Of a DNA stretch of 64,000 nucleotides, positions 6,520 through 42,341 are shown piece by piece (within the stretch, counting starts at the first letter, position 1; every line of letters starts with the position of its first letter). Location of the stretch: assembly GCA_013285465.1 (NCBI GenBank), contig CP053449.1, positions 1,363,540 through 1,427,539 on the forward strand, read 5' to 3'. A program made the position numbers and the translations under genes. Below the pieces are notes generated by a model, which had not been told where the DNA came from, ran no database searches, and saw only the letters and a program-made list of their open reading frames with translations. The DNA is from Pseudomonadota bacterium (lineage in GTDB: Bacteria > Pseudomonadota > Alphaproteobacteria > Micavibrionales > CSBR16-224).

Positions 6520-6798
6520 TTACTTCCTTTTCGCTTTCTTGTCAGCGCCGTGACCGTAATAGCTACGGGTCGGCGAGAACTCACCAAACTTATGCCCGAT
6601 CATTTCTTCCGTTACCAGAACCGGAATGAATTTCTGGCCGTTATAGACACCAAAGGTCAGTCCGACGAATTGCGGCATGATCAATGAACGGCGTGACCAG
6701 ATTTTGATCACTTCATTGCGGCCGGCTTCGCGAACAGCCTGTGCTTTTTTCAGCACATAACCTTCAACAAACGGGCCTTTCCAAACTGAACGAGACAT
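6520..6798 (-). CDS. rpsS: 30S ribosomal protein S19
   Basis: 92 residues, the usual length. S19 binds with S13 in the head of the small subunit. The start [11 protein letters not shown] and the signature [17 protein letters not shown]-type block (here [20 protein letters not shown]) are clear. It follows rplB by 20 bases. Confidence 0.98.
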
Positions 6799-6818
6799 GT
6801 TCTCTTCCTTTCCTAATC

Positions 6819-7658
6819 CTACTTGCTTCCGCGCTTCGATTTGCGACGGCGCAGAATGAACTTATCGGTTGCTTTATTGCTGCGCGTCCGCGCACCTTTT
6901 GTCGGTTTACCCCACGGCGTCACAGGATGACGACCGCCTGATGTCTTACCTTCACCACCACCATGCGGGTGATCAACCGGGTTCATCACAACACCGCGGA
7001 CTGTCGGACGACGTCCCAACCAGCGTTTGCGACCGGCTTTACCGAGGCTGATATTCTTTTGATCCGCGTTCGAAACCGCACCGATCGTGGCCATGCACTC
7101 GCCGCGCACAACGCGGAGCTCGCCGGAAGACAGTTTAATCTGTGCGTAACCGCTGTCACGACCGACCAACTGTACATAGCTGCCCGCGGAACGTGCGATC
7201 TGACCGCCTTTGCCGGGCTTCAGCTCGACATTATGGATGATCGTACCGACCGGAATGCTTTTCAGCGGCATTGCGTTACCCGGCTTCACATCCGCTTTTT
7301 CGGATGCGATGACGCGGTCGCCCGCTGCCAGACGCTGCGGCGCCAGAATATAAGCCAGCTCACCGTCATCATATTTGATCAGCGCGATAAAAGCCGTGCG
7401 GTTCGGATCGTATTCAATCCGGTCAACCGTTGCTTCAACGTCGAATTTGCGGCGTTTAAAGTCAATCAAACGGTATTTCCGTTTGTGACCGCCACCGATA
7501 TGACGTGTCGTAATCTGGCCGTGATTGTTCCGTCCGCCTGATTTCGTCAGACCAACCGTCAGGCCTTTGACGGGTTTCCCCTTCCAAAGCTCGTTGCGGT
7601 CGACCGTAATCAACTGGCGCATCGCTGGCGTTCTCGGCTTATATGTCTTCAATCCCAT
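6819..7658 (-). CDS. rplB: 50S ribosomal protein L2
   Basis: 279 residues, standard. L2 is needed for subunit association and supports the peptidyl-transferase centre. The N-terminal [33 protein letters not shown] and the C-terminal signature ([19 protein letters not shown]) with the conserved catalytic-centre His segment are present. It sits between rplW (55-base gap) and rpsS. Confidence 0.98.
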
Positions 7659-7713
7659 TGTTCTAAACCCTTTTATCTTCCTGCAAGAAACTCTTGTCTA
7701 AAATCCTGCTTTC

Positions 7714-8031
7714 TTAAACTCCTGCCGTCACATCGACCATTTGTCCTTCGGCCAGTGTTACGATTGCCTTTTTAATGTCGCTGCGGCGGCCTTTATAGCC
7801 ACGGAAGCGTTTGGTTTTCCCTTTCAGGCGCAATGTGTTAACGGCTTTGACTTGAACACCGAAGATTGCTTCAACAGCATCTTTGATTTCCGGCTTGGTC
7901 GCATCAAGCGCCACTTTAAAAGTAACCTGCCCGTGTTCGGAGCCCATGGTTGCTTTCTCGGTAATGACCGGCGCCAGCAGAATGTCGTACATACGCGGCG
8001 TTACTTGTGTTTTTGCTGCTTTCTTACTCAT
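7714..8031 (-). CDS. rplW: 50S ribosomal protein L23
   Basis: 105 residues. L23 lies at the exit tunnel and is the main docking point for trigger factor and SRP. The RNA-binding core is recognisable from [15 protein letters not shown] through [20 protein letters not shown]. Its first four bases overlap the end of rplD, indicating translational coupling. Confidence 0.96.
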
Positions 8032-41299: not shown

Positions 41300-41479
41300 T
41301 TATTCAGCAGGTTCGATAATTTGCTGGCCCTTGTACATGCCTGTTTTCAGGCAGACATGGTGCGGGCGTACGAATTCGCCGGTCGTCTTATCTTCGGCAT
41401 AAGCCGGAGACGACAGGGAATGGTGCGAACGGCGCATATTGCGTTTCGACTTCGAGGTTTTCTTCTTAGGTACAGCCAT
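41300..41479 (-). CDS. rpmF: 50S ribosomal protein L32
   Basis: 59 residues starting [20 protein letters not shown] and ending GQQIIEPAE. The start is the universal L32 N-terminus. Of the zinc cysteines seen in some L32 proteins only one (HVCLKTG) is present, so it is the zinc-independent type. It sits 95 bases before plsX, the classic rpmF-plsX-fabH order, behind its own promoter. Confidence 0.96.
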
Positions 41480-41564
41480 TGCCTTATCCTTTGTCCTTTA
41501 TCTTTATCGTCTTCTTTTCAAAATCCTTTTTTCCTGTCCTCCCCTCGGGAGGCGGAAACGCTTT

Positions 41565-41593
41565 TATATAATACATCACAGCAGAAAGTGCAA
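41565..41593 (-). promoter_or_regulatory. promoter of rpmF-plsX-fabH
   Basis: TTGCAC (41588-41593) and TATATA (41565-41570) on the minus strand are 17 bases apart. The leader holds a small GC-rich hairpin (CCTCCC/GGGAGG). The sRNA promoter on the other strand starts only about 45 bases away, making this a divergent promoter pair. Confidence 0.7.
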
Positions 41594-41636
41594 GCATATT
41601 TCTTATATATGGCGCTTCTCCGCGAAAAAGAGCAAT

Positions 41637-41665
41637 TTGCAAAAAATTTTACGAAAACTTAATAT
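41637..41665 (+). promoter_or_regulatory. promoter of the candidate small RNA
   Basis: TTGCAA (41637-41642), exactly 17 bases, then TAATAT (41660-41665) on the plus strand. No open reading frame with a binding site follows; the transcript would begin near 41672. Confidence 0.7.
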
Positions 41666-41671
41666 TGTTAT

Positions 41672-41783
41672 GCAATACTGGAATTATAGGGTTTTAAGTC
41701 TTCAGTTGAATGTGTATTGCTCGCTCCAAAGTTGGTTGAATGAAATTGTAGCCGGGATGTTCTCATCCCGGCTATTTTTTTTT
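41672..41783 (+). ncRNA. candidate small RNA of about 112 nt
   Basis: A near-consensus promoter ends 6 bases before this stretch and a textbook intrinsic terminator closes it. The predicted 5' end starts directly with GCAATAC, which pairs with GTATTGC at 41714-41720 to close a large stem-loop. A small CCAA/TTGG hairpin follows, and then the 11-bp terminator stem. It encodes no plausible peptide. It is antisense only to the last bases of the winged-helix gene (41772-42341). I recognise no Rfam family; 6S RNA, tmRNA and SRP RNA do not fit by size or motif. Confidence 0.62.
41749..41783 (+). terminator. strong intrinsic terminator ending the candidate small RNA
   Basis: An 11-bp perfect stem (TAGCCGGGATG/CATCCCGGCTA, 4-base loop) is followed by nine T on the plus strand. 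The polarity is clear: on the minus strand no T-run follows the stem. Its 3' arm overlaps the stop codon of the minus-strand regulator gene. Confidence 0.92.
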
Positions 41784-42341
41784 GTTTCCCGTGAAGATAT
41801 AGCCTTCTTCGCCCGTTTCAATCAGCGGCTCTCCCGAAAGAGCCTGAATCTTCTGCCGCAGGCGGTAAATATGAGTTTCCAGCGTGCGGGTATTGACTGC
41901 GGCATTATATTTCCAGACATTTTCCAGCAATTCCGCCCGGGTCACATTCTCTCCTGTACGGTTATAAAGATACAGCAGAATATCAGCCTCTTTTTCGGTC
42001 AGGGATGCTTCCCCGCTCCCCGATTTCAGGCGCAAAATCCGTTCCGCAGGAATAAAGCGGCATTTTCCGATTGTCAGAACCTGCTTCAGGCTTGCCGCTT
42101 CCTGCCGGGCAAAAAACTGTCCGATCATATCCAAAAGCACCCCGGCACGCAGCGGTATCTTGACGGCCAAATCGCGCCCATCGTTCCTCTCCGCCGCATG
42201 ATCCACCAAGCGCAGGTCATATTCCGCTTTTCCGTCATCACGCAACAATGTGTAATGCACAGACAGAAAGGCTTCCAACGCATCCGCCAGCACATCATCC
42301 TGCACCGACAGCGCGATTCGTTTTTCTGTGTCTTTCCCCAT
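41772..42341 (-). CDS. winged-helix (OmpR/PhoB-type) regulator with degenerate receiver
   Basis: 189 residues. The C-terminal half (about 87-185) is a PhoB-type winged helix (SLTEKEADILLYLYNRTGEN, the recognition helix NTRTLETHIYRLRQKI, then EEGYIFTG). The N-terminal part (about 8-80) resembles a shortened receiver (LVDHAAERNDGRDLAVKIPL) but lacks a clear phosphoacceptor Asp pocket. It probably binds DNA without classical phosphorylation. Targets are unknown. Its stop codon lies inside the sRNA terminator on the other strand. Confidence 0.75.
   Translation of the reverse strand: MGKDTEKRIALSVQDDVLADALEAFLSVHYTLLRDDGKAEYDLRLVDHAAERNDGRDLAVKIPLRAGVLLDMIGQFFARQEAASLKQVLTIGKCRFIPAERILRLKSGSGEASLTEKEADILLYLYNRTGENVTRAELLENVWKYNAAVNTRTLETHIYRLRQKIQALSGEPLIETGEEGYIFTGNKKK

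Follow-up and report, generated by a model that had tools for sequence, protein, structure and literature searches.

A candidate small RNA gene, restricted to one genus, beside rpmF in an alphaproteobacterial lineage

The interval between rpmF and an orphan winged-helix regulator gene raises the question of whether it holds a small RNA (sRNA) gene and, if so, how the product may act. It was studied within a window of 64,000 nucleotides (64 kb), which is the whole stretch of DNA analysed. The initial annotation had proposed a plus-strand promoter-to-terminator unit for an RNA of ~112 nt, and the interval from the proposed 5′ end to the last T of the terminator does measure 112 nt (Table 1). We compared the genome carrying the unit (G000; 2.67 Mb, single contig) with two genomes of the same genus (G001 and G002) and four further genomes of the same family. 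The genus sample comprised three sequences, two of which are 94% identical. The G002 sequence comes from contig SKHU01000222.1 of an alphaproteobacterial MAG, isolate CSBr16_224; the CSBr16 label was also used in a Siberian soda-lake study. The predicted unit, its strand, and its conservation are well supported by the sequence, and the unit is very probably a real, transcribed sRNA gene. The full reading, that of an intergenic sRNA restricted to the genus, acting in trans and probably dependent on Hfq, we hold with moderate confidence, as transcription, Hfq binding, pairing and targets are all predicted.

Table 1. Coordinates of the putative sRNA unit and its neighbours in the 64-kb window.
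Feature	Position	Strand	Remarks
-35-like TTGCAA	41637..41642	+	read from sequence; weak, not conserved in G002
Invariant promoter block AAAATTTTACGAAAACTTAATATT	41643..41666	+	contains the -10 TAATAT (41660-41665); 24/24 identical in G000, G001 and G002
Predicted small RNA, ~112 nt	41672..41783	+	5′ end inferred; promoter spacing, fold, genus conservation
5′ stem GCAATAC (41672-41678) / GTATTGC (41714-41720)	41672..41720	+	7 bp, 35-nt loop
Core 1, AGUCUUCAGUUGAAYGUGUAU	41697..41717	+	conserved; candidate pairing segment
Core 2, GCUCGCUCCAAAGUUGGUUG	41719..41738	+	CUCC anti-Shine-Dalgarno-like stretch, small CCA/UGG hairpin
Rho-independent terminator	41749..41783	+	11-bp stem, UUCU loop (4 bases), U9 tail
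rpmF (ribosomal protein L32)	41300..41479	-	PF01783, E 2.7e-24; transcribed away from the sRNA unit
Orphan winged-helix regulator gene (Trans_reg_C)	41772..42341	-	PF00486, E 3.4e-18; 3′ end overlaps terminator

The neighbours are those described initially. The unit adjoins rpmF in all three genus genomes, and rpmF is divergent from it. The 3′ end of the regulator gene flanks it on the other side and overlaps the terminator by ~12 nt, because the T-run encodes the terminal codons of the regulator (KKK) and its stop codon lies within the 3′ arm (G000 and G001). The regulator is a single-domain protein without a receiver domain; the sole Pfam match, to Trans_reg_C, falls in the second half of the protein, and nothing matched the first. 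Its gene was found directly upstream of rpmF in the genus and in two other members of the family (G003 and G006). A likely rpmF promoter, CTTGCACTTT...TATTATA, was located on the minus strand at 41559-41597. It is conserved across the genus, and many further genomes of the order have a block like it, TTACATAA...CAAG, upstream of rpmF (e.g. L033, L034, L038-L040, L042).

The terminator indicates the strand of the unit. The 11-bp stem with nine T was found where it had been placed, with the arms TAGCCGGGATG (41749-41759) and CATCCCGGCTA (41764-41774) and the T-run at 41775-41783, and it is kept in the three genomes. No other stem on either strand of the window has eight or more perfect pairs and is followed by seven or more T; none occurred in 20 simulated 64-kb windows. 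The claim that its polarity fits only a plus-strand transcript also held, given the orientation of the T-tail. Moreover, G001 has a G-U pair where the other genomes have G-C or A-U; a minus-strand RNA would have C-A here, so it is on the plus strand that pairing is maintained. In G002, two pairs of the stem changed in a compensatory manner, from G-C to A-U and from U-A to C-G. This covariation is slight, given a sample of three genomes that includes one pair at 94% identity, and the shuffle control gave 115/500. The compensatory changes are, in consequence, supportive of a plus-strand RNA, not strong evidence for one.

The proposed promoter, TTGCAA-17-TAATAT, stood only in part. Both hexamers lie at the positions first given, separated by 17 bases and with six bases more to the 5′ stem, and the -10 element and the spacer are invariant in the three genomes. 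The -35 hexamer became TTGCAG in G001 and is absent at that spacing in G002. The match to the consensus is weak (8 of 12 positions by our own count), and a simple promoter scan of the sequence did not list it. These weaknesses speak for a reading in which nothing is transcribed, the promoter-like stretch having arisen by chance and the terminator being spurious or serving the regulator gene only. We consider this decidedly unlikely in view of the 24/24 identity of the promoter block, the plus-only polarity of the tail, and conservation beyond that of neutral sites. The call of a promoter rests on the conservation of that block (41643-41666) in three genomes, which supports it; the sole other match in the genome to the block's 3′ 19 bases has three mismatches. 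The invariant block exceeds what a promoter needs, which suggests that some regulator may control sRNA synthesis through it. We also observed an inverted repeat, GAAAACTTAA (41653-41662) and TTAAGTCTTC (41694-41703), matching at 9/10 positions and spanning the promoter and the early RNA. Most of it is conserved in G001 and G002, and it could represent a pair of operator half-sites.

Between G000 and G002, identity amounted to 58% at the third codon positions of plsX, 38% in the rpmF leader and 33% in the spacer that precedes the unit. The linker ahead of the terminator (23%) is not conserved. The promoter block, the two cores and the terminator are conserved far above the flanking DNA in the three genomes. 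Core 1 is identical at 21 of 22 ungapped positions between G000 and G002, and core 2 is identical at 20/20 positions in G001 and in 20 of 21 columns in G002, where one A is inserted. As judged from these alignments, the mosaic of an invariant promoter and cores, a free linker, and a terminator with paired substitutions is the pattern of an sRNA gene under selection. Of the elements marked out initially, the alignment across relatives thus retained the promoter core and the terminator in 3/3 genomes, the latter with its compensatory changes, and the 5′ stem partly.

G002, the most distant species, keeps the promoter block, cores and terminator, and the conservation ends at the terminator. There, a plus-strand gene of ~2.3 kb intervenes and places the regulator gene ~2.4 kb from the unit; the unit is nevertheless whole, which argues that it is independent of its regulator neighbour. 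The intervening gene, an ORF of ~770 aa with a PEP-utilising enzyme C-terminal domain (L064 ~6570-8000 into L080 1-1497), was observed at this place only in G002. This arrangement bears on two alternatives. The overlap in G000 and G001, with the regulator's last lysines encoded by the T-run and its stop codon in the 3′ arm, would suit a cis-acting convergent antisense unit that tunes the winged-helix regulator by transcription interference or antisense pairing. We regard this as unlikely, since in G002 the promoter, cores and terminator are kept with the regulator displaced past another gene, and neither conserved core falls within the overlap. The unit could also belong to a plus-strand gene downstream, as its 5′ leader or an attenuator, and such a gene does follow the terminator in G002. 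In G000 and G001, however, the next gene is on the opposite strand and ends at the terminator, so that the gene order refutes a leader there and makes this reading extremely improbable overall. Taken together, the regulator ending inside the terminator and the insertion in G002 indicate that the unit does not depend on the 3′ end of the regulator gene and is no leader in G000 or G001.

As for the RNA itself, the fold of 41668-41784 (117 nt) has an energy of -35 kcal/mol (z -4.06), to which the terminator contributes much. The 5′ stem was found at the coordinates first assigned to it. All three genomes have the same inner AUAC/GUAU pairs and the same pair at one outer position; two of the seven pairs of the stem, both among the outer three, are broken in G002. 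In the predicted folds the stem forms in G000 and G001, whereas G002 folds differently, without it. The invariant pairs are neutral evidence for the stem and say nothing either way.

Across the unit, G000 has an open plus-strand frame; shortly past the ATG, this frame is interrupted by TAA in G001 and by TGA in G002. A small mRNA, or a dual-function RNA, for a short peptide would have in its favour a 9-codon ORF, ATGTGTATTGCTCGCTCCAAAGTTGGTTGA (ATGTGT...), identical in G000 and G001; the ATG is replaced by ACG in G002 and insertions shift the frame, which makes this reading highly improbable. That the unit has no conserved ORF, and so would lack coding capacity, is well supported by these comparisons.

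The view that the unit belongs to no known RNA family was borne out by Rfam (Rfam 15), in which no family matched at its gathering score. Relaxed thresholds returned weak matches only, none reaching the gathering score. The best of these, rnk_leader (RF01771; 23 bits versus a gathering score of 50) and the greA leader (RF01769; 17.8 bits versus 60), scored mainly through the GC-rich terminator hairpin with its U-tract, and neither an rnk nor a greA gene follows the unit. The resemblance to YrlB (RF02565; 21.5 bits versus 97) is limited to the hairpin around the terminator. We also considered 6S RNA (RF00013); the unit did not match its covariance model, and the 6S gene of this genome lies elsewhere (2122397-2122555).

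A covariance model built from the three genus sequences was searched against 142 genomes of the order and 385 of the class. Convincing matches among the 142 order genomes were confined to the three of the genus; beyond it, neither the family, the order nor the 385 genomes of the class yielded a convincing relative, in searches whose stricter filters could have missed very divergent relatives. Matches in G131, G138, G424 (adjoining yajC) and at a second place in G000 consisted mainly of the terminator hairpin, with the cores lost, and two matches in G110 covered model positions 68-117 only, that is, the 3′ end; all were judged to be chance. An exact pattern of the cores with some free positions matched only the G002 record among 84,980 species genomes, and no match emerged when the sequence was compared with phages, plasmids, E. 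coli genomes and viral contigs.

Within the family, G003 and G006 keep the regulator-rpmF arrangement without a recognisable unit, and other genes adjoin rpmF in G004 and G005. The intergenic region of G006 (AAAATTTTAC, a bidirectional terminator) was rejected as a relative, its similarity being no better than that of shuffles (84/300). We note that the bidirectional terminator in this regulator-rpmF gap (L035), AAAAAAGCCTCAGTTAGA...TCTAATTTGAGGTTTTTTTTT, follows a possible plus-strand promoter; the element might be unrelated to the unit or a strongly diverged counterpart of it. The intergenic region of G005 beat all but 24 of 300 shuffles and was not counted as homology. A literature search returned no papers on rpmF-linked sRNAs in Alphaproteobacteria. 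The best reading of the sequence data is that the unit represents an undescribed sRNA family confined to one genus and probably an ordinary kind of bacterial regulator.

The action of such an RNA can be outlined from the sequence. RNA polymerase would start near 41672, from a promoter with the genus-invariant -10 and spacer, and transcription would stop at the U-tract 41775-41783. Hfq typically binds 3′ ends of this type, in which a strong hairpin is followed by U9, and it would be predicted to bind here; an hfq gene is present in the genome (PF17209, E 8.3e-32). The RNA would then act in trans, with core 1, AGUCUUCAGUUGAA, and/or the CUCC-containing core 2 pairing with the ribosome-binding sites of target mRNAs and lowering their translation or stability. 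In particular, GCUCGCUCC of core 2 could mask a Shine-Dalgarno sequence. Close to ATG codons, G000 has five perfect matches to the complement of a part of core 2, versus two for a control pattern, and no gene with such a complement before its start codon was common to the genomes; no target is therefore supported. Predicted pairing with the leaders of rpmF, the regulator gene, the 42413 gene, plsX and a fructose-bisphosphate-aldolase-like gene did not clearly beat shuffles in any case.

The outcome of the target search, together with the conserved unpaired or weakly paired segments and the 5′ domain, could instead point to a non-coding RNA that binds a protein, as a sponge or scaffold, and does not pair with mRNAs. 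This appears improbable to us: no known protein-binding RNA family matches the unit, 6S RNA is encoded elsewhere in the genome, and we saw no conserved repeated binding motif in the unit. A more elaborate proposal is a genus-specific module, in which the orphan winged-helix regulator would drive the sRNA via the 24-base block and the sRNA would adjust ribosomal or membrane-lipid gene expression (the rpmF-plsX-fabH cluster or others); we consider it very unlikely.

A base-pairing sRNA of the genus, our preferred reading, would add one undescribed family to the sRNAs of a lineage of Alphaproteobacteria that has received little study and is represented here mostly by draft genomes. The general interest is modest. 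The locus gives a clear example of an sRNA gene confined to one lineage and lying between a regulator gene and rpmF, and since some relatives of the same family keep these two genes adjacent without the unit, the birth of the sRNA gene may be traceable.

Alphaproteobacterial sRNAs of the CUCC (anti-Shine-Dalgarno) type exist, for example AbcR. Compared by motif and by Rfam models, the unit is like them in having a CU-rich segment able to pair with a Shine-Dalgarno sequence, and unlike them in containing a single CUCC and in lacking an Rfam match to such a family. RusT of Caulobacter crescentus is a demonstrated trans-acting, Hfq-dependent base-pairing sRNA (PMC11005374). Our unit differs from it in being confined to one genus and in that its Hfq binding and target are only predicted; the likeness is one of general features, namely a free-standing, non-coding unit in a genome with hfq.
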